Assembly: GCF_001975725.1 (NCBI RefSeq)
Contig: NZ_CP019434.1
Location: 310,001 to 374,000 of the forward strand
Length of the DNA: 64,000 nt
Origin: Acidihalobacter ferrooxydans
GTDB lineage: Bacteria; Pseudomonadota; Gammaproteobacteria; DSM-5130; Acidihalobacteraceae
Direction: 5' to 3'
The notes beneath the pieces were generated by a model. The model made no database searches, was not told the origin of the DNA, and saw nothing but the letters and a program-made list of their open reading frames with translations. Position 1 is the first letter of the stretch; the number at the start of each line of letters is the position of its first letter. Position numbers and translations under genes: made by a program. Below, one piece after another: positions 11,829 to 53,183 of this stretch.

Positions 11829-12989
11829 TCAGCCGCGCAGATAGCGACCAGAGGCGATGTCGTGTTCGTCGCGTTCATGGACCACGCTGGCGCGCCCGAC
11901 CAGTAATCGATCCAGCTGACCGATGCGTTTCAAGTCCTTGTCCGTATAGGGCAGCGACAACAGGATGTAGCGCATGGCGTTGAGTCGAGCGCGCTTCTTG
12001 TCGTCGGATTTGACCACCGTCCAGGGTGAGTCGGCCGTGTCGGTGTGGAAGAACATCGCTTCCTTGGCGCGGGTGTAGTCGTCCCATTTGTCCAGCGAGG
12101 CCAGATCGATGGGCGACAGTTTCCATTGCTTGAGCGGATGCACACGCCGCTCCTTGAAGCGTCGGCGCTGCTCTTCGCGGCTGACTGAAAACCAGAACTT
12201 GATCAGGTGGATGCCGCTGCGCACCAGATTGCGCTCGAATTCGGGCGCCTGACGCAGAAATTCCTGATATTCGTACTCGCTGCAAAAGCCCATAACGCGC
12301 TCGACGCCGGCGCGGTTATACCAGGAGCGGTCGAACAGCACGATTTCACCGAAGGTTGGCAGGTGCCTGATGTAGCGCTGGAAGTACCATTGGCCGCGTT
12401 CGGTTTCGCTGGGTTTGTCCAGGGCGACCACGCGCGCGCCGCGCGGGTTGAGATGCTCCATGATGCGTTTGATCGTCCCGCCCTTGCCGGCTGCATCGCG
12501 GCCCTCGAAGAGAATGACGAGGCGCTGGTTGGATTCCTTGAGCCAGGCTTGCAGCTTCAGCAGTTCGACCTGCAACTCGAATTTCTGGTCTTCATAATCG
12601 CGGCGGCGCATTTTGTACCGATAGGGATAGCCCCCGTCGCGCCAGTCCGCGGTCAGTTCGTCGTTGGTTTTGCCGGGAGGTGCCGGCAGGGGGTGACGCA
12701 GTTCTTCGCGCATGGCGTCGACATCGTCGGGTGCGTCACCGGCCAGAATGGCTTCGATATCGGCCTGAGCCTGCTCGCCTTCGCTGCGCTGGAGTTCGCG
12801 GAGGGTCGCGGCTTCAGCGTCCTGCGCGGCATGCAGTGACTCTGAGGTGGTGTATTTTTTGATTCCGGAAGGCGTGAGTCGTGGAGCGGTATCGCCTTTG
12901 TTCGGCCGGCGCGGCAGTTTTTCATCGTTTTTTGCCGCGCCGGCACGGCGCTTTGGGGTTGGTTTTTCGATCGGCCCATGATCGTCCAT
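11829..12989 (-). CDS. ppk2: Polyphosphate kinase 2
   Basis: 386 aa. PPK2-family enzyme that phosphorylates nucleotides from polyphosphate. Walker A is FEGRDAAGKGGTIKR, the lid/Walker B region is LFDRSWYNRAGVERVMGF, and VALDKPSETERGQWYFQRY is characteristic. The first 110 residues form a basic, low-complexity extension not required by the core fold. The class (ADP- or AMP-phosphorylating) cannot be fixed by eye, though single-domain architecture suits class I. A good sigma-70 promoter lies upstream on this strand (13059-13087). It converges on ubiB with 7 bp between the ends. Confidence 0.92.
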   Translation of the reverse strand: MDDHGPIEKPTPKRRAGAAKNDEKLPRRPNKGDTAPRLTPSGIKKYTTSESLHAAQDAEAATLRELQRSEGEQAQADIEAILAGDAPDDVDAMREELRHPLPAPPGKTNDELTADWRDGGYPYRYKMRRRDYEDQKFELQVELLKLQAWLKESNQRLVILFEGRDAAGKGGTIKRIMEHLNPRGARVVALDKPSETERGQWYFQRYIRHLPTFGEIVLFDRSWYNRAGVERVMGFCSEYEYQEFLRQAPEFERNLVRSGIHLIKFWFSVSREEQRRRFKERRVHPLKQWKLSPIDLASLDKWDDYTRAKEAMFFHTDTADSPWTVVKSDDKKRARLNAMRYILLSLPYTDKDLKRIGQLDRLLVGRASVVHERDEHDIASGRYLRG

Positions 12990-36669: not shown

Positions 36670-39600
36670 TTATTCCCGGTATTCGTTGCGCGCCTGTTCG
36701 AGCAGGCATTCCATCAGCTTGAGCCGCGCGCGTTCAAATTCTTTGTCTATCAGGCCGCGTGTGCTTGCCTCCGCCAGCCGGTCGCAGGCTTGGCCAAGCG
36801 TTGCGGCCTGCTCACCGAGACCGGCGATATACGTCTGCACGGGATTGTTTCCCTGACAAAAGCGCTGTACGACTTGCGCCTCATCCGTGAAAGACGCCTT
36901 ATCGGCCAGACAGGGCGCGCAGCCGCCGTTGTCCAGATACACGGCCAGTGCGCCTAGCGCGGTACTCGGCATGTCGGGCGCGAGACACGCCGGCATGTTG
37001 TCGATCCAGGTCGGCAGGTCAGTGGCAGGCATCGGCCGGGCGATAGCATAGCCTTGGCCGTATTCGGCGCCGAGATAGGCGGACGCTTCGACCAGTGCCG
37101 GGGTTTCCAGCCCTTCGACCGTCACCCACTTGCCCATGTCTTGCGCGAGTCGGGTCAGATGACGGATGAAGTTGAGCGTACGCAAGGGGTTTTGCCGATA
37201 GTGGCGCACCAGTGTCTGATCGATCTTGACGCCATCGAAGGGGAGGCGATCGAGGCGCAGCAGGCTGCTGTAGCCCGATCCGAGGTCGTCCTCGAGCAGA
37301 CGCACACCCAGACCCTTCAGGGTATCAAGGGCGCGGTCGCGCGCGCTCGCATCGGTACTCTCGGCGGTTTCCAATAGCTCGAGCTTGAGCCGCTGGGGCG
37401 ATATTGAATGATGCGTCAGAGCACGTTCGATGAGGCCCAGATAGCGGCTGTCGCTCAGGCCCTGCGGCGGGAGGTTGAGCGAAATATTCAGGGTGTGGCC
37501 CTGCGTTTCCCAGTCGATCGCGGTCTCCAGTGCGTGGTGGAGGCCGAATTCGAACAGCCGCCTGAGCTCATGCTCGCCGAAGCTCGGCAGGAACTGGCCG
37601 GGCATGATCAGCGTACCGCTGGGTTCCCGCAAGCGGGCGAGCGCTTCCGCGCCGACCACCTGGCAGCTACGCAGATCCAGGATCGGCTGGTAATGCAGCT
37701 CCAGCGCGTCTTTCTTCAGAAGCTTGCGCCAGCGGTCACGCAGCGGCTGGGCGAGGATGTCCTGTTCCGTATGAGCGACGCGTTGCAGGGCCTGGCCGAT
37801 GAGATGACGCAACTGCTGAAGCATGCGTTCCTGATCCTGGCCCGAAAAACCGCCGACGTGTTTGAGGTACAGGGTGAGCACCGCCTGGGGTGGACCGTTC
37901 GGGGGGACGAGCGGGATAGCCACGGAAGAGCGTACCCCCAACGCCAGGCCGTGTTCGCGCCAGGGCCGCAGGCGCGGGTCGGTGGCGTAGTTCAGGCAAC
38001 GCTCGATCGCGCCGCTGCGCCAGGCTCGGCCGGTGGGGCCTTGTCCTTTCTCGCTGGGGTTCACATCAATCGGGCGGGCGCGCCCTTCAGCCAGCGCCTG
38101 GAGATACTGCCGGAAGGCGTCGCCTGCGATGAATTCAAAGACGTAGTGCCCGGCCGCATCCGGCCGACCCAGGGTGACCGAAACCACGCCGCTGAGTGCG
38201 GCCAGCGCCTCGACCATGCCTTCGCCCAGTTCGGTGAAGCGCTGGGCGCGCATCGCCAGGGAGGTAATGCGCTGCAGTGCCGCGTCGTACTCGGCAGTAA
38301 TGTCCGCATGGCCGGTGAGCTGCGCCTGCAGATCGATCGCGAGGCGGCGACTGAGCAGGCTGAACAGCACCGCCGAGCTTGGCAGGCTGATGTGCAGGCG
38401 TTCGAGGAGCAGGCCGTAGGCGCCAACCACCCATTCGGGGCGGATGCCGACCATGGCGTGGATGCGGCCGAGTTGACGGGAGGCGTCGCGATGCGCGTTT
38501 TCGTCTAATTCGGAGGCGAGCAGCTGGCCCAGATGGTTCTCCATCTCCGCGCGGTGTTGGCGCTTTTCTTCGCTGGAAAAGGTCTGGATGAGCACGCCAC
38601 TTTCAGGGTCGACGCTCAGCTTGGCATAAACCGCTTCCACTACCGCCGGCAGCGCGAGCGCGAGTACAGGTTCGATGCGCTTGAACGCCTGGGTAGCGGC
38701 GGTGCCATAAGCCGGCACATCAATGTCGGCCATGCTTTCGTTCGAGGTGGCGGCAAGGCCGGCGAACGAGCGGGTGGCATCGAACAGGGTCCACCAGCGC
38801 TCGCGAGCGTTCTTTTGCGCCTTGGCCTGATACAGCGCCTGATCGGCGGCGCGCAGCAGAATGCCGGCCGCGTCCTTGCCGCAGTCGAAGCACAGCGGAT
38901 AGATCACCAGCCCCAGACTCAGGCTAATAGCAACTTCGACCGTATCGGACACCTGGATCGGTGCGGTCAGAGTGGCATGCAGACGTGCGAGCAGTGTTTC
39001 GAGGTCGTCCAGATTGTCCAATTCTTCGAGCAGCAGCACGAATTCGTCGCCACCCAGGCGGCAGGCAAAGTCGTTTTTGCGCAACTCGGCCTGTAGCCGA
39101 TGGGCAAATTCGATCAGCAAGGCATCGCCGGCTGCGTGGCCATGGAGATCGTTGATCAGCTTAAAGTCGTCGAGATCGAGCAGGGCGACGGCCAGCAGCC
39201 GCTCCTGGCGGTCGGCGCGGGCCAGGGCTTCTTCGACACGGGTGTCCAGCGCGGCGCGATTGGGCAGGTCTGTCAGCGGGTCGTGGAAGGCGAGCCGAGC
39301 GAGCTTGCGTCTTTCTTCGTCCAGCGCGGCGTCGCGGGCGAGGGTCGCTTCCAGGAAATGACCCAGTTCCTCGATTTGGGTTTGAGTATGGTGCTTTCCG
39401 AAGGTGCCAGACGTGCGACTGTACAGGCTCAGGACCAGGCGGCGGTCGCCGGCCTGCATCGGCAGGGCGACGGTGGAGCGCCACTGATGATGCTCGATGG
39501 CAGGCTGGAATGGCGAGGATTTGTCTGCTTCCCGCCAGTCTGGAATATGGCAGGGCTTGCCTGATCGTAGCGCCTGGCCGGTTGGCCCCTGCGCCCATGG

Positions 39601-39834
39601 ACCCTGATCCCAGTGCACCTGCAATTGCGCAAGAAATTCCATCATTTCCTGGCTGGATGCGTAATCGACCAGGACGCGTCCGTCCGCCTCCGCGTGGCCC
39701 AGCCAGTAGCCATCGACATGCCAACTCTTGAGCAGCGGAGCGAGGTCTTCGAGCAGGCCGCGCGTTGTGGTCGCTTTCGAGAGCAGGCGCGCTAAGCGGC
39801 GGAAGAACTGGATTTCATTTGTTCTGTTACTCAT
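36670..39834 (-). CDS. GAF-GGDEF-globin-GAF-EAL cyclic di-GMP signalling protein
   Basis: 1054 aa, no transmembrane helix. Order: GAF (about 15-170); GGDEF (about 180-340) with intact RLGGDEF; a globin-coupled-sensor-like domain (about 375-530) with LGRIHAMVGIRPEWVVGAY, matching the proximal-His region of sensor globins; a second GAF (about 545-715); and EAL (about 735-985) with AEALARL, EDDLGSGYSSLLRLD and TVEGLETP. Both diguanylate cyclase and phosphodiesterase sites look competent. A heme globin suggests O2 or NO control of c-di-GMP. A mid-protein globin is unusual because sensor globins are normally N-terminal. Monocistronic; no partner nearby. Confidence 0.85.
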   Translation of the reverse strand: MSNRTNEIQFFRRLARLLSKATTTRGLLEDLAPLLKSWHVDGYWLGHAEADGRVLVDYASSQEMMEFLAQLQVHWDQGPWAQGPTGQALRSGKPCHIPDWREADKSSPFQPAIEHHQWRSTVALPMQAGDRRLVLSLYSRTSGTFGKHHTQTQIEELGHFLEATLARDAALDEERRKLARLAFHDPLTDLPNRAALDTRVEEALARADRQERLLAVALLDLDDFKLINDLHGHAAGDALLIEFAHRLQAELRKNDFACRLGGDEFVLLLEELDNLDDLETLLARLHATLTAPIQVSDTVEVAISLSLGLVIYPLCFDCGKDAAGILLRAADQALYQAKAQKNARERWWTLFDATRSFAGLAATSNESMADIDVPAYGTAATQAFKRIEPVLALALPAVVEAVYAKLSVDPESGVLIQTFSSEEKRQHRAEMENHLGQLLASELDENAHRDASRQLGRIHAMVGIRPEWVVGAYGLLLERLHISLPSSAVLFSLLSRRLAIDLQAQLTGHADITAEYDAALQRITSLAMRAQRFTELGEGMVEALAALSGVVSVTLGRPDAAGHYVFEFIAGDAFRQYLQALAEGRARPIDVNPSEKGQGPTGRAWRSGAIERCLNYATDPRLRPWREHGLALGVRSSVAIPLVPPNGPPQAVLTLYLKHVGGFSGQDQERMLQQLRHLIGQALQRVAHTEQDILAQPLRDRWRKLLKKDALELHYQPILDLRSCQVVGAEALARLREPSGTLIMPGQFLPSFGEHELRRLFEFGLHHALETAIDWETQGHTLNISLNLPPQGLSDSRYLGLIERALTHHSISPQRLKLELLETAESTDASARDRALDTLKGLGVRLLEDDLGSGYSSLLRLDRLPFDGVKIDQTLVRHYRQNPLRTLNFIRHLTRLAQDMGKWVTVEGLETPALVEASAYLGAEYGQGYAIARPMPATDLPTWIDNMPACLAPDMPSTALGALAVYLDNGGCAPCLADKASFTDEAQVVQRFCQGNNPVQTYIAGLGEQAATLGQACDRLAEASTRGLIDKEFERARLKLMECLLEQARNEYRE

Positions 39835-48156: not shown

Positions 48157-48471
48157 TCAGGGCGCATCGCTGTATTCGATTTCCTGTACCAGTAACCACG
48201 GCGCTGCGACCACCGCCCAGAACAGCGGGCGGCGCGCGCCCCAGATTCTCGCATCATCATCGCTTGCGCGGCATAGCGTGCCGGCTTCCATCCAGCCGCG
48301 GATCGCCGCGACATCGTCGCCGGCCATCCGCGCCGCGACTTCAACCAAATCGAGGGAGGCGCTCACTTTAACCACCGCGCCGCGGGCGAAGTGGCGTTCC
48401 ACCTCGGGCCATTCGAGCTTGCCGGTTTCGGCGTTCAGACGGGCGCGTAGCGTGCGTTCTTCATCGTTCAT
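48157..48471 (-). CDS. DUF2288 family protein
   Basis: 104 aa from the ATG at 48471. The full DUF2288 pattern is present: ARLNAETGKLEWPEVERHFARG, then VVKVSASLDLVEVAARMAGDD and the C-terminal WLLVQEIEY. No function is known for the family. It converges on the FAD/Fe-S oxidoreductase gene. Confidence 0.85.
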   Translation of the reverse strand: MNDEERTLRARLNAETGKLEWPEVERHFARGAVVKVSASLDLVEVAARMAGDDVAAIRGWMEAGTLCRASDDDARIWGARRPLFWAVVAAPWLLVQEIEYSDAP

Positions 48472-48806
48472 GGTGGAGAGTGTAAAAGATTCATCGCCTG
48501 CGTGGTTTGCACAAATCGCACGTTGCGATCTTCGCATGGCATGGTCCCGCGATACGCACTGGCATCTACACTTATCCCGGATGTTTCAGAATGACCACCG
48601 ACCTCGCGGGTCTTGTGATCCCATAAGGGATATTGCCTCAGTCGGTCGTCATCACCGATACACCGTTTCTGCGGGACTTTCATTGTGAACCCCCTATCCG
48701 GCGCGTTTTCAGCACTCGTTATGAAACATCCAAGTGATGAGGCGGTCGCCACCTTGCGTCCTGAGCCGGGGTTGGCGGGATTTTGGATGACCAGGAGGTG
48801 TTAGGC
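48472..48806. other. Intergenic region containing MITE-like repeat B2
   Basis: About 335 bp. Mostly repeat copy B2 (48576-48731). The short stretch to 48806 contains the GGAGG ribosome-binding site of the next gene. No other feature seen. Confidence 0.6.
48576..48731. repeat. MITE-like dispersed repeat, family B copy 2
   Basis: About 156 bp, aligned along its length with 6038-6204. Terminal inverted repeats GGATGTTTCA (48579-48588) and TGAAACATCC (48722-48731) are perfect; the left end extends to CCC (48576). Confidence 0.8.
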
Positions 48807-49688
48807 ATGTTTGGTGAGAAATTCCCGCCGAGCGATGTGATCGACAAGCTCAATGAACTCATGACAAGCCTGCAGGGGCATTTGCAGGAAACGCACAAGA
48901 CGATGCTCGCGCGCCGGGAGACCGCGGCCAGGGCCGGAGCCATCATTCAGCAGGTTGTCGAGTCTGCCGCGGGTTGGGAGCAGCTTGCGAAAGAAGGCAT
49001 GGAATTGGCGGCAAAGTTTGCGACCGAAGGCATGGAGCTGGGCTACGAGTTCGCCACTCATGGCATGGATCTGGGCTATGAGTTCGCCTCCAGGGGCGAA
49101 GCCGTTGGACCGATGGCGAACCGAGTGCTGTTCATGGCGGTGCAGATCGGCGTCATGGCGGACCGTATCGGTGAAATGTCCGACCGTATTCTGTTTATGG
49201 CCGACAAGATCGGAGAATTCGGCGACAAGATTCTCTATGAGTCGCAGTTGGTCATATACACCGAACAACTGATCATCGACGAAAGCGTGTTACTGGAAAA
49301 CGCGATTCGCACGTTCGCTGAGGTCATCGCCGAGGGGGTCGCGACGGTCACGGGCAATGCGGCGTTCTTCGAGTACAAGCGCGCCGTGCGGGAGTCCAGC
49401 CAGGACGTGTATGAGCATATCTACGGCAATATGAATCTCATGTTGAGCAACATGCATGAATACTCACTTGCCGTGTTGCAAAAAGAAGAGCGTGATCGTG
49501 AACGCGAGCTACAGGTCAGGGAGTTGCAGGTCAAGTTGCGTGAGGCGACGCTGAGCGCCAACGCCTGCTACTGTCCGTGTTTCTGCACTGATACCGTACC
49601 CGCGGCGAGCGGGAGCGCTGTCGCGCCGACAGGTACGCCTGTAGACAAAGCGCCTGGCGACGGAGCGGGAACGAAGCCGGTCGAATAA
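48807..49688 (+). CDS. Amphipathic-repeat protein of unknown function with Cys cluster
   Basis: 293 aa, predicted largely helical. Residues about 58-95 hold three imperfect 12-residue repeats (AKEGMELAAKFAT, EGMELGYEFAT, HGMDLGYEFAS). These run into a stretch of MADRI-type repeats (VQIGVMADRIGEMSDRILFM, then ADKIGEFGDKI). Near the C-terminus is a dense Cys motif, NACYCPCFCTD, followed by a Pro/Ala/Gly-rich tail. Met-Ala-Asp-Arg-Ile repeats recur in unnamed proteins of environmental proteobacteria as far as I recall. Strong GGAGG upstream; an intrinsic terminator follows. Confidence 0.7.
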   Translation: MFGEKFPPSDVIDKLNELMTSLQGHLQETHKTMLARRETAARAGAIIQQVVESAAGWEQLAKEGMELAAKFATEGMELGYEFATHGMDLGYEFASRGEAVGPMANRVLFMAVQIGVMADRIGEMSDRILFMADKIGEFGDKILYESQLVIYTEQLIIDESVLLENAIRTFAEVIAEGVATVTGNAAFFEYKRAVRESSQDVYEHIYGNMNLMLSNMHEYSLAVLQKEERDRERELQVRELQVKLREATLSANACYCPCFCTDTVPAASGSAVAPTGTPVDKAPGDGAGTKPVE

Positions 49689-49715
49689 GAAATGACTGAG
49701 CGATTCAGGTACAAC

Positions 49716-49744
49716 GGCCAGGGCTGACCGGCCCTACGTTTTTT
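49716..49744 (+). terminator. Probable intrinsic terminator
   Basis: Stem AGGGC / GCCCT (49720-49735) with a 6-nt loop, three bases, then TTTTTT (49739-49744). It follows the gene at 48807 by about 30 bp. Confidence 0.6.
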
Positions 49745-49838
49745 GATGTTCTCTTACGAACTTTTTGCCCGTTGAATTCTGGTCACACACAGGGCTTGTG
49801 TATGCTGATCAGACTTTTTCGCCGGCAGGAAATCATCT

Positions 49839-50327
49839 ATGCATCAATTGCGATCCGTTTACGAATCCTTTTCGACCGGTGTTTATCTACTCGCTGCGGT
49901 TGCTCTGACGTTGTTGTCGATCTCGATTATGGGGTGGTCGGTATTCGAGGTTATTGACACGATGTTTCTGGCCAAGAGGCATCTGGAAGGCTCGTTCGTG
50001 CCCGTGATGTTGCAGTCCGTCGGCGCCATTGTCATCGCCGTGGCCATTCACGATGTGGCCAAATACATGGTCGATGAGGAGGTGTTGCGCACCAAGGAGC
50101 TGCGCTCGGCGGTAGAGGCGCGAGAAACGCTGACAAAAATCATCGTGATCGCGACGATCGCGGTGACCACGGAAGCGCTGGTTTACATATTCAAGGCCGG
50201 CATGCGGGATTTGAGCCTGCTGGTGTATCCGGTGCTGTTGCTGTTCGCGGTCGTGCTGCTGTTGGTGGGGCTCGGGGTGTATCAGCGCTTGAGTTTTCAG
50301 GTCGAAAATGGCAACAAGAAGACTTGA
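49839..50327 (+). CDS. Four-helix integral membrane protein of unknown function
   Basis: 162 aa, four predicted transmembrane helices (about 13-33, 55-75, 99-117 and 128-148), with a charged loop RTKELRSAVEARETL between the second and third. The topology recalls PsiE-like small membrane proteins, but I see no decisive motif. AGGA precedes the start. Separated by a terminator from the preceding gene. Confidence 0.65.
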   Translation: MHQLRSVYESFSTGVYLLAAVALTLLSISIMGWSVFEVIDTMFLAKRHLEGSFVPVMLQSVGAIVIAVAIHDVAKYMVDEEVLRTKELRSAVEARETLTKIIVIATIAVTTEALVYIFKAGMRDLSLLVYPVLLLFAVVLLLVGLGVYQRLSFQVENGNKKT

Positions 50328-50413: not shown

Positions 50414-51619
50414 TTATTCGGCGTCGTTTTGCGGCGAGCCGATGCCACGGCCGATGCCGTAATTGAGCTTGCGTGCCGGCAGGTACCAGATGAGTCCGTC
50501 GATCAGCATCAGCACGCCGGCTGCGGCGAGCACGTAATCGGTCACGCTGTAGGGGCCTGCGTGCAGCATCCTGTTCATGGCAATCGCCAGACCGATGAAG
50601 GAGACACCCGTGCGGATCAGCGACAACCCGGTTCTGGCGCGGGCATAGGAGGTTCGGTGGCTGCCGGCGATGGTGCGCTGCGCGGCGAGGATGTTGCGCT
50701 CACGGGCGAGATGGGTGCGTTCCTTGCTGGCGGGGACGGGGCGCAGGATGGAGCAGTAAGGGGGAATCGTGGCGGCCAGTCGTGCCAGCGGCGAGGCGTC
50801 CGCAGGCGTGACCGGCGCGTCCTCCAGGTGATAGCGCCGGGTAAAGCGGACGGTTTCGCCGGTAATCTGCAGCAGCGCGTTTTGCAGGGGCAGATCCATG
50901 CGTGAGCGGCGTGCCTTGAGGTAGTCGAACAGGCCGATGGCGGCCAGCGCGCTGCCGGCGAGCAGGATGGCGAGGTGATGCGGGGCCAGCACGTTGTCAT
51001 TGAGGCGGGTCAGGGCGTTCGACAGCGCCACCATCGCCAGCCCCCAGCGGAGCAGTTTCATCGAGGTACGCGCGCGGGCGTGGCCGGTGCGGTGGCAGGC
51101 CAGTTTGGTGCGCCAGAGCGCCATGGTGTTGCGCCAGTACGCGAGGCCGGTGCGTTCGATGCCGATGAGCAGGCTCGCCTCGGCGTGGAGGTAGTCCTGG
51201 ATGTACCAGCGCACGTCCTCGTTGAGCGCGACGCGATACTCGTAAGCCGCCGCGGGCAAGGATTCCTGCACCTGCGCGCGCATCGTTGCGCTGGCCGGGT
51301 TGACTGCTGCGATCACGACAGTCTCGCCCACTTGCATGACCGGGAACCAACGCCCGGCGCGCAGCGCCTTACCGTCCAGTCCGGCAAACAGGTCCGAAGG
51401 CACCGACAGGCGCTCATCGTACTGCACGCTCAGGCAGTCGTAGTGCCTGGACAGGGCATTCAGCAGCGCGCAGCGCGAGACGCCGGATTCGTGCAAGAGC
51501 ACACGCTCCGTGTCGATTCCGCGTGCGGCCGCGCTGCGCTGCGCGGCGTCCAGTTGCGCCGCGCTGAGCACGCCGTCCTCGACCAGGGCGGTATAGGCGG
51601 GGTCTTCAGTCGTTGTCAT
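50414..51619 (-). CDS. MshEN-like domain fused to two DUF202 modules
   Basis: 401 aa. The N-terminal region (about 1-145) resembles the MshEN / T2SSE N-terminal c-di-GMP-binding fold, including DGVLSAAQLDAA and YDCLSVQYDERLSVP. Two DUF202 (YidH-type) modules follow (about 150-240 and 295-390). Each has an Arg-Thr ladder such as IGIERTGLAYWRNTMALWRT or RARTGLSLIRTGVSFIGLAI and then a transmembrane pair ending IWYLPARK or similar. The gene overlaps its upstream neighbour by 14 nt. No function known. It is likely an inner-membrane signalling or scaffold protein, as inference. Confidence 0.75.
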   Translation of the reverse strand: MTTTEDPAYTALVEDGVLSAAQLDAAQRSAAARGIDTERVLLHESGVSRCALLNALSRHYDCLSVQYDERLSVPSDLFAGLDGKALRAGRWFPVMQVGETVVIAAVNPASATMRAQVQESLPAAAYEYRVALNEDVRWYIQDYLHAEASLLIGIERTGLAYWRNTMALWRTKLACHRTGHARARTSMKLLRWGLAMVALSNALTRLNDNVLAPHHLAILLAGSALAAIGLFDYLKARRSRMDLPLQNALLQITGETVRFTRRYHLEDAPVTPADASPLARLAATIPPYCSILRPVPASKERTHLARERNILAAQRTIAGSHRTSYARARTGLSLIRTGVSFIGLAIAMNRMLHAGPYSVTDYVLAAAGVLMLIDGLIWYLPARKLNYGIGRGIGSPQNDAE

Positions 51620-53183
51620 GGTAATGGGTTCGCTTCCAGGTGTTTTTCGGCTGGCTGTAGTCGGCGTCGGCGATTTCGAAACCGGCGGCGCAGAAAGTCG
51701 AGCGCCGTTTGATTCGTTCGGCAGCCAGATACCAGCGCAGGCCGTCGGCGATCAGGTACAGGCCAATGAGCATGAGTGCGCTGTCGAAGGCGGTCCACAG
51801 CGGGTGTGCGCGGCCGAAAAAATCAAAATAAATGAACAGGCCGGCGCCGACCGAGAGGATGCTGAAGCCGGTGCGGATGAACGCCATGCCGGTGCGGGCG
51901 CGCGCCATGACCGTGCGCAGGTGCGACATGGCGTTGCGCTGGTCGGCCAGCGTGGTGCGCTCCAGTGCCAGCCCGGTGGTGGCCCACACGCCGGGCCGCG
52001 CCTGACTGACGTTTGCCTCCGCCACCGGATCGCGCTGCGCGGCGTAAAGACAGGCGGAAGGGAAAATCGTATCCCACGGGCCACGCCGTTTGCTGGCCTT
52101 GTCGACGGTGTGCCGCGCGGCGTGTGCCGCATCCCTGCCGGGCCAATACCAGATAAAGCCTTCGACCAGCATCGCCACGCCGACGACGATCAGTGTCCAG
52201 TCGAACACCGACCACGGACCGGGGGGGAATTTGCGCAGAAAGGCGATGCCGAGGCCGGCAAAGGCGACGCCGGTGCGTGCGAAGGCCAGTCCGGTGCGCG
52301 CCTTGGCCATCAGAGTGCGCAGATAGGCCAGTACGGTGCGTTCTTCGGCGAGCGTGGTGCGATCGTTGGCCAGAAAGCGCCGGCGCTCGACGGGCGAGAG
52401 CGCGTCCCAGTGCTCGCGCAGCTCCTGCGCACTTGCCACGCACGCGCTTCTGTGGAATTCGAAAGCGCCGCCGGGATCGGAGACTTCAAGCGCGGTGTAG
52501 TCGTCCGGGACCGTGTAGGGCGGGTAGGGTTTGATGGCCTGTTGTATATGCCGTGCCGGCAGATACCAGAGCATGCCGTCGACGATGGCGGCAAGGCCGA
52601 GAATCAGCAGTGGAATCTCGAACAGCAGCAACTCGCCGCCGCCGAACAAGCGCAGAAACACCACCGCAATGCCGATAAAGGCCAGCCCCGTGCGGGCGAG
52701 CGCCAGCCCCGTGCGGCCACGCGCGAATTGCGTACGCTGATCCGCATAGCGGGTACGCAGCACGGCCAGATATGTTCGGACTTTGGCCAGCGGCGTGCGC
52801 CCGCCAGAGACCGGGAATTCGGGGTTAAGGTCCGCGCTGTTCTCGATCAGACGGAGCATGTCGGCACGCGTGGTTACGCGAAACGCGATGTCGTCGACGC
52901 CGAGCGTCGCGCGGATGTGCTGTTGCAGTGCCGGATCGTCCGGCGTGCAGGCGACGACTTCCGCGCTGTGTTCGGTCCAGCTGAGCGGCAGCCAGAGTTC
53001 GTCGCGCAGCCGGTCGATGTCCAGCCGCCGCACGATGGATTGCGACGCGGTCAGACCTTCATCGTATTCGACGGACGGGCAATCGCAGCCTGCCGCCAGT
53101 TGCGTGAGTTCGATATGTTTGGGTAAGCCTTGCGGGTATATCGTTCTGCTCCTGGTCAATGCGGTTGTGCGGGGCGCAGGCAC
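51606..53183 (-). CDS. MshEN-like domain fused to three DUF202 modules
   Basis: 525 aa from a GTG start. The N-terminal region (about 20-115) is related to that of the neighbour (CDCPSVEYDEGLTASQSIV). Three DUF202 modules follow, at about 130-215, 273-362 and 400-485. The RT ladders are RTGLALARTGLAFIGIAVV, RTLMAKARTGLAFARTGVAF and RTVMARARTGMAFIRTGFS. Each is followed by a hydrophobic helix pair ending in W-Y-L/W-P/A-A/G-R. Three tandem DUF202 modules in one protein is an unusual architecture; normally a single module makes a small membrane protein. It forms a two-gene unit with 50414-51619. Confidence 0.75.
   Translation of the reverse strand: MPAPRTTALTRSRTIYPQGLPKHIELTQLAAGCDCPSVEYDEGLTASQSIVRRLDIDRLRDELWLPLSWTEHSAEVVACTPDDPALQQHIRATLGVDDIAFRVTTRADMLRLIENSADLNPEFPVSGGRTPLAKVRTYLAVLRTRYADQRTQFARGRTGLALARTGLAFIGIAVVFLRLFGGGELLLFEIPLLILGLAAIVDGMLWYLPARHIQQAIKPYPPYTVPDDYTALEVSDPGGAFEFHRSACVASAQELREHWDALSPVERRRFLANDRTTLAEERTVLAYLRTLMAKARTGLAFARTGVAFAGLGIAFLRKFPPGPWSVFDWTLIVVGVAMLVEGFIWYWPGRDAAHAARHTVDKASKRRGPWDTIFPSACLYAAQRDPVAEANVSQARPGVWATTGLALERTTLADQRNAMSHLRTVMARARTGMAFIRTGFSILSVGAGLFIYFDFFGRAHPLWTAFDSALMLIGLYLIADGLRWYLAAERIKRRSTFCAAGFEIADADYSQPKNTWKRTHYHDND

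Follow-up and report, generated by a model that had tools for sequence, protein, structure and literature searches.

A gene pair encoding three plus two arginine-ladder DUF202 modules in Acidihalobacter ferrooxydans and distant bacteria

A constant total of five DUF202 modules

The genome of Acidihalobacter ferrooxydans encodes two overlapping genes, A and B, that join an MshEN-like head to three and two DUF202-like modules, respectively. The pair lies in the 64,000-nucleotide stretch analyzed here (positions 310,001 to 374,000 of contig NZ_CP019434.1), which is referred to as the window. The main new result, read from sequence comparison, is an apparent 3+2 stoichiometry: at each of the 23 intact adjacent loci, A carries three modules and B carries two. 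All 26 genomes with the pair agree with this count; in three of them the pair is fragmented, with A divided between two frames in L068 and the two genes found on different contigs in G667 and G669. The module count of five, a detail in the first-pass annotation of this DNA, is the most informative feature of the pair. A constant total of five, split 3+2 in distant bacteria, provides genetic evidence on the oligomeric state of a bacterial DUF202 assembly. It is consistent with a model that A and B together form one pseudo-pentameric, arginine-lined DUF202 tube, channel or anion conduit, to which a probability of about 0.45 is assigned. The genes and their parts are as follows.

51606..53183, minus strand: gene A, 525 amino acids as called from GTG; C-terminal half of an MshEN-like head and three DUF202-like arginine-ladder modules
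52830..53120, minus strand: head of A, C-terminal part of the MshEN/XpsE fold
52545..52805, minus strand: module A1, Arg at residues 129, 136, 143, 150, 157 and 164, with the second helix after them
52128..52400, minus strand: module A2, Arg at residues 268-303, one per 7
51702..51989, minus strand: module A3, Arg at residues 409-437, one per 7, with Thr as the first rung
50414..51619, minus strand: gene B, 401 amino acids; MshEN-like head and two arginine-ladder modules
51185..51607, minus strand: head of B, complete MshEN-like fold without the motif for cyclic diguanosine monophosphate (c-di-GMP)
50900..51178, minus strand: module B1, Arg at residues 156-191, one per 7
50450..50740, minus strand: module B2, Arg at residues 301-336, one per 7

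The two genes overlap by 14 bp. A profile made from the modules themselves found three matches in A and two in B, which bears out the first-pass description of two overlapping genes with five DUF202 modules in total. No frame with four or more modules appeared in this count, and all 13 single-module proteins that were fetched have exactly one. The Pfam MshEN profile (PF05157) matched the two window proteins with 29.7 and 32.9 bits, above its cut-off of 23.1. The DUF202 profile (PF02656, cut-off 23.4) matched A with 55.9 bits. The domain assignments of the annotation thus hold for PF05157 in both proteins and for PF02656 in A, while B of the window, at 22.5 bits, stays just under the DUF202 cut-off. 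B proteins of relatives pass it (32.1 bits in L067 and 28.4 bits in L102). In AlphaFold models of A and B, every module consists of a helix of 50-58 residues followed by a helix of 26-40 residues, in line with the membrane helix pair per module that had been proposed.

The pair is present in all five genomes of the window's family and in both genomes of another family. Of 274 genomes sampled from the class, 5 contained a whole B, and among 398 genomes sampled from the phylum (at most three candidates scored per genome) a whole A was found only in the window's own genome. In the remaining 25 genomes matched in the phylum scan, the match was the head of a long open frame in 23 and a single DUF202 protein in 2. 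An alignment search of named genomes recovered 16 loci from 78 candidate stretches, in Acidithiobacillus, Igneacidithiobacillus, an Acidihalobacter metagenome-assembled genome (MAG), bacterium BMS3Bbin13, a gammaproteobacterial MAG, a Desulfobacterales MAG (G667) and a Deltaproteobacteria MAG (G666). The phylum of G667 was sampled with 297 genomes, of which 23 carried a ladder module and 7, G667 included, carried the pair; these seven and G666 make up the eight deltaproteobacterial carriers referred to below. Nine of the 23 (G708, G719, G778, G799, G803, G867, G899, G926 and G941) are known by one match per open frame. A first scan of genome contigs with one protein returned no relatives, and a plasmid collection returned no match.

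The arginine ladder

The first helix of each module carries a ladder of arginines spaced seven residues apart. The runs at this spacing are 6, 6 and 5 arginines long in A and 6 and 6 in B, and in 20,000 shuffles the observed total was never reached for either protein. The Arg-Thr ladder noted in each module at first pass is therefore real. Other spacings from 3 to 13 gave no run of four or more; spacing 14, the double of 7, gave 8 in each protein. In an alignment of A from 16 species and B from 15, columns 17, 24, 31, 38 and 45 are arginine without exception in each of the five modules. At column 10, four of the modules have arginine and A3 has threonine.

The heptad consensus is R-T-x-L-A/S-x-x. 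Across 78 modules, position 0 is arginine in 452 of 468 cells, position 3 is hydrophobic in 91% and position 4 is small in 96%. Conservation amounts to 2.4-4.1 bits at positions 0, 1, 3 and 4 and to 0.6-0.9 bits at positions 2, 5 and 6. On a helix wheel drawn with our own geometry, the arginine falls between the hydrophobic and small positions, on the conserved face. Such a face, arginine included, is as expected of a packed or lumen face, which argues that the arginines are turned to partner helices or to a lumen. The ladder segments of the window modules have a net charge of +4 to +9.

Single-module relatives extend the ladder much further. Ten DUF202 proteins (L100, L101 and L132-L139) share the module and the heptad R-T-x-L-A/S-x-x with A and B but, unlike them, showed no MshEN head in any of the eight that were scanned, and their ladders reach 40 heptads. 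L133 (3269-4390), L134, L135, L137 and L139 each encode one protein with 16-39 arginines at strict seven-residue spacing (17-40 heptads) that ends in a single two-helix DUF202 module. The longest ladder, in L133, has 39 arginines over 40 heptads, and a 40-rung ladder, if helical throughout, would be ~400 angstroms long. The matches of the long ladders to Pfam coiled-coil families are weak and mostly under the cut-off. A repeat this extreme raises the physical question of what neutralizes the arginines, which is directly testable.

Comparison with canonical DUF202 proteins and yeast VTC

DUF202 proteins are widespread in bacteria, and E. coli YidH is a member of PF02656. To our knowledge, no function has been established for bacterial DUF202 proteins. 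YidH was tried as a D-alanine exporter and, as reported in PMC10299036, did not lower D-alanine accumulation. The literature searched, one collection of papers, contained no title on DUF202 proteins, and no paper with both DUF202 and MshEN was among the best-ranked matches listed. The canonical bacterial proteins share the PF02656 profile and the RT..LA..RT motif with the A and B modules; the window's own genome has one (L001, 67.2 bits, three hydrophobic segments). They differ in having one module, three hydrophobic segments and 3 Arg rungs, whereas the A and B modules have 5-6 rungs and two predicted helices rather than three membrane helices per DUF202 unit.

The eukaryotic relative of these proteins is the VTC polyphosphate channel. 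Yeast VTC is described as a Vtc1:Vtc3:Vtc4 pentamer of 3:1:1, in which five transmembrane domains of three helices each surround one channel that is formed by the five first transmembrane helices (TM1) (PMC9911596). The channel-lining residues named there include K24 and R31 of Vtc1 and K622 and R629 of Vtc4, in pairs seven residues apart (PMC9911596), and DUF202 is listed for VTC4 (PMC4400040). VTC and the A/B pair thus have in common the DUF202 class and a first helix whose basic residues are spaced by seven. They differ in that VTC has three membrane helices per subunit, while A and B are predicted to have two per module, with the modules fused 3+2. A and B also have additional Arg rungs, presumably on the cytoplasmic side, and no polymerase or SPX domain: no VTC/TTM polyphosphate polymerase or SPX domain was found among their Pfam matches up to E 1. 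Moreover, no polyphosphate kinase (PPK) was found in most deltaproteobacterial carriers of A and B.

How do the ladder rungs correspond to the VTC residues? L076, a single-module RT-ladder DUF202 protein from a different genome of the phylum, matches the Vtc1 chains 9umg, 8i6v and 7ytj at E 0.06-0.09, which alone is not significant; in these matches ladder arginines align onto Vtc1 K24 and R31, with the numbering offset inferred. The Pfam ranges set DUF202 profile positions 1, 8 and 15 on ladder columns 31, 38 and 45 in all five window modules. The same register was also taken from the canonical protein and L076, with the arithmetic done by hand. By this analysis, columns 10, 17 and 24 would be a cytoplasmic-side extension relative to VTC.

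A histidine kinase beside the pair

In seven deltaproteobacterial genomes, A and B are followed directly downstream, on the same strand, by a histidine kinase and a receiver gene. In G669, one of the seven, A is represented on that contig by its tail only. In the eighth carrier, G667, the histidine kinase and receiver are divergent and adjoin A. The sensor region of the kinase found matches in all eight deltaproteobacterial carriers and in none of the 15 other carrier genomes searched; a search with this region found no kinase of this kind in the window's genome.

Some single-module ladder genes occupy a similar position. Three of ten such loci (L133-L135) have the order ladder-kinase-receiver, as in the pair loci. 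Their sensor regions are homologues of the ones beside the pair (67-118 bits), while one unrelated kinase gave no match. These single-module genes and the 3+2 pair both precede homologous kinases, so the two seem interchangeable, filling the same slot. A swap of a single self-associating module for a 3+2 pair would seem to be what is expected when a homo-pentamer is replaced by a hetero-pair. The kinase and receiver in the eight deltaproteobacterial carriers thus lend support to the earlier suggestion of a membrane signalling or assembly system, but this support does not extend to c-di-GMP or to the window's genome.

Other features of the single-module loci were also observed. A receiver domain stands at the C-terminus of the Arg-ladder module in L100 (3725-4840) and L132 (5717-6775). 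A PPDK_N/PEP-utilizer protein is encoded directly after the ladder gene in L100 (by Pfam) and L132 (by similarity), and similar genes also occur near the pair in L127, L128 and L129. Cytidylate_kin2-type genes precede the ladder genes in L138 (by Pfam), L101 and L139 (by tblastn to that of L138).

A proposed pseudo-pentameric tube and its alternatives

The preferred model, a pseudo-pentameric tube, builds on the modules, the ladder, the 3+2 count and the kinase linkage, which come from sequence, and on the head fold and two helices per module, which are predicted. The pentamer, the inward arginines, the topology, and conduction or sensing are added by inference. In this model, five DUF202-like modules, three of A and two of B, would be arranged around a common axis in one membrane complex. 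The laddered first helices would pass in parallel out of the cytoplasm and into the membrane, their arginines inward. The Arg-lined cytoplasmic tube would then run on into a membrane pore, as in the pentameric VTC channel, with two or three Arg rungs per module added relative to VTC. The even number (two) of membrane helices per module would keep every ladder on the same side when modules are joined in tandem. The complex would most likely bind, sense or conduct anions or an anionic polymer. MshEN-like heads may stand at the cytoplasmic mouth in a protein-protein or regulatory role, and in deltaproteobacterial carriers the adjacent histidine kinase and receiver would probably read the state of the complex. 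The fused 3+2 pair offers a construct in which every position can be mutated singly.

Several observations weigh against this model. The stoichiometry of the complex could be a multiple of A+B. The single-chain AlphaFold models are middling (mean pLDDT, the predicted local distance difference test, 67.6 and 76.2; predicted template modelling score 0.57 and 0.52), and a ring cannot be shown by them. The first helices are weakly hydrophobic: a Kyte-Doolittle analysis sees 5 of 6 expected segments in A and 3 of 4 in B of the window, and the segments fall to 3 (A) and 1 (B) in some relatives. An unrelated BCCT transporter, at E 0.022, outranks Vtc1 in the PDB search with L076, and PDB searches with the module profile and with the own-genome canonical DUF202 protein found no VTC chain. 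The register is somewhat uncertain as well, as MAFFT set the canonical arginines on columns 17, 24 and 31, two rungs earlier.

Fold searches with the membrane part (Foldseek and VIA-align, best 50 listed each) returned ABC transporters, ExbB and other long helices at helical-bundle values; no VTC chain was among the best 50 matches listed per search, and one may stand lower down. PDB sequence searches with four queries, canonical DUF202 among them, found heads only or nothing convincing.

The main rival to the pseudo-pentameric tube is a non-conducting scaffold, in which a long parallel coiled coil would join the membrane anchor to the heads or the kinase, and the arginines would bind acidic partners or lipid. 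Ladders of 40 heptads in single-module relatives are far beyond the need of a membrane pore. The kinase, receiver and PPDK-like neighbors suggest signalling, the receiver domain is fused to two single-module proteins, and the coiled-coil families of Pfam match the long ladders, if weakly. A scaffold nevertheless leaves the constant total of five unexplained, and it fits poorly with arginines on the conserved helix face and with ladder segments of net charge +4 to +9. On balance, it is somewhat unlikely. A generalization of the tube model takes in the long ladders: the Arg-heptad DUF202 proteins would be a new class of bacterial helical tubes in which five parallel helices form Arg rings, built as a homo-pentamer of one protein with a long ladder or as a fixed 3+2 pair, with a DUF202 pore and a dedicated kinase reader, and serving as conduit or gauge for an anionic polymer other than, or beyond, polyphosphate. 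This broader proposal is tentative and a little less likely still than the scaffold.

Another alternative is a strict polyphosphate channel whose cargo is PPK-made polyphosphate, as in yeast VTC. It draws on the DUF202 class shared with VTC, the five modules and the Arg/Lys-lined TM1 of VTC. PPK1 was found in 16 of 23 carrier genomes, including all 15 searched outside the deltaproteobacterial group, and the window's genome has PPK2 twice, once in the window itself at 11829-12989 (minus strand), ~37 kb from the pair. However, PPK1 was found in only one of the eight deltaproteobacterial carriers. The search for PPK2 covered 18 genomes, of which 11 are carriers, and found it in three, namely one of eight deltaproteobacterial carriers and two of three other carriers; the seven genomes with single-module ladders only gave none. 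Both kinases are missing in seven of the eight deltaproteobacterial carriers; some of these and of the single-module genomes may be incomplete MAGs. Five genomes have PPK1 and the pair on the same contig, always separated by 95 kb or more, and the Pfam matches of A and B include no polymerase or SPX domain. The PPK counts make polyphosphate from known kinases unlikely as a common ligand, and polyphosphate is unlikely to be the common cargo. It is a possible cargo in acidophiles, and an anion or another polyanion is a possible ligand. The strict polyphosphate channel is thus quite improbable.

The MshEN-like heads

The predicted heads match the N-terminal domains of MshE, XpsE and PilB. The head of A aligns by VIA-align with XpsE 2d27 (Z 11.3, 97 residues, root-mean-square deviation 2.8) and with MshE 5htl (Z 10.2, 101 residues, root-mean-square deviation 2.9), and it matches PF05157 at E 6.7e-8. 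It covers the C-terminal part of the MshEN region only, and the N-terminal half that holds the c-di-GMP motif is missing. The best Foldseek match of the head of B is MshE 5htl_B (E 4.7e-5). The MshEN-like head of the first-pass annotation therefore stands as a fold, over its C-terminal part in A, but its proposed c-di-GMP binding is not supported.

MshEN domains that bind c-di-GMP are described as having two 24-residue motifs, RLGxx(L/V/I)..., in strict and relaxed forms, and XpsE, of the same fold, as having lost binding through changes at such motif positions (Wang et al., PMC5013675). The 24-residue motif, strict or relaxed, was found in none of 31 aligned heads (no positive control was run). 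The A proteins in this alignment (16 rows) begin at the match start, so that part of some heads is missing, and the search was repeated on whole frames. There, too, all 53 open frames that carry two or three modules, taken from the stop upstream of each, lacked the motif (again with no positive control run; L066 and L103 in this set are one gene, and the heads of L068 and L102 are cut). The NCBIfam c-di-GMP model NF053729 gave B 13.4 bits against a cut-off of 38 and did not list A. The absent motif and this score speak against the heads as c-di-GMP receptors, and this reading was rejected.

The heads thus share the fold of the N-terminal domains of MshE, XpsE and PilB (PF05157) and differ from them in the absent c-di-GMP motif and in having no attached ATPase. 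Their best sequence matches outside the family are the heads of GAF-MshEN-T2SSE ATPases (frames of ~765-800 amino acids), which carry GAF and ATPase domains and, unlike A and B, no DUF202 modules (by Pfam for L024 and L071). These two ATPases were checked, and the MshEN-like domain lacks the c-di-GMP motif in both. The heads of A and B would be protein-interaction or regulatory domains at the cytoplasmic mouth rather than c-di-GMP receptors.

The annotation had also pointed to a GGDEF-EAL-globin protein, and the window does encode a GGDEF-protoglobin-GAF-EAL protein at 36670-39834, ~10 kb from the pair; nothing tested links this gene to A and B. Despite the MshEN/XpsE fold of the heads and the GGDEF-EAL protein in the window, a membrane complex controlled by c-di-GMP is hardly credible given the motif's absence from all heads and frames searched, the missing motif-bearing half in A, the loss of binding described for XpsE (PMC5013675) and the motif-less heads of the two ATPases.

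Other genes near the pair

When 18 window proteins were compared with six relative loci, only A and B were present in all six. The nearest same-strand upstream genes in the window are pyrimidine-like (Pfam DHODB Fe-S, amidohydrolase and carbamoyltransferase), with no recurrence beside the pair in the six loci. The GGDEF-EAL protein and a protein of 1280 amino acids gave partial matches of 25-37%, in one relative locus each. A DUF2288 gene (48157-48537, minus strand) lies ~1.9 kb from B and adjoins B in one of the six relatives (L048:10829-11134). Two small genes at 48783-50327 (plus strand) converge on the pair, encoding a membrane-like protein of 162 amino acids and a protein of 301 amino acids with repeated MELGYEFA-type segments; neither had a Pfam match above cut-off or a counterpart in the six loci.

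In the Acidithiobacillus and Igneacidithiobacillus loci (L054-L062, L068 and L069), a DsrE-like gene (11 loci) and a barrel-like gene (10 loci) adjoin the pair, either co-directional upstream of it or converging downstream. The DsrE-like protein scored 21.2 bits against a cut-off of 22.7, and the barrel-like protein had no Pfam match. A DsrE/porin operon was considered as the function and rejected: the window's genome gave no match to that DsrE and four of five family genomes have it away from the pair, which makes the association local only.

A candidate start codon of gene A

Gene A seems, from comparison of sequences, to start at a non-canonical AUH codon. The candidate in the window is as follows.

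53139..53141, minus strand: candidate non-canonical start of gene A (ATA), 7 nt downstream of GGAG, proposed by comparison

At 13 of 19 readable loci, AUA, AUU or AUC stands ~7-9 nt after GGAG, GAGG or GGGG as the putative start. These are the window, L048-L050, L054-L060, L062 and L069, with L054, L055, L056 and L058 assigned by eye, two codons later. In L048, an ATG is also present two codons ahead of the candidate start. Five of the 19 loci lack any ATG, GTG or TTG in the interval from the in-frame stop upstream to the conserved EYDE motif.

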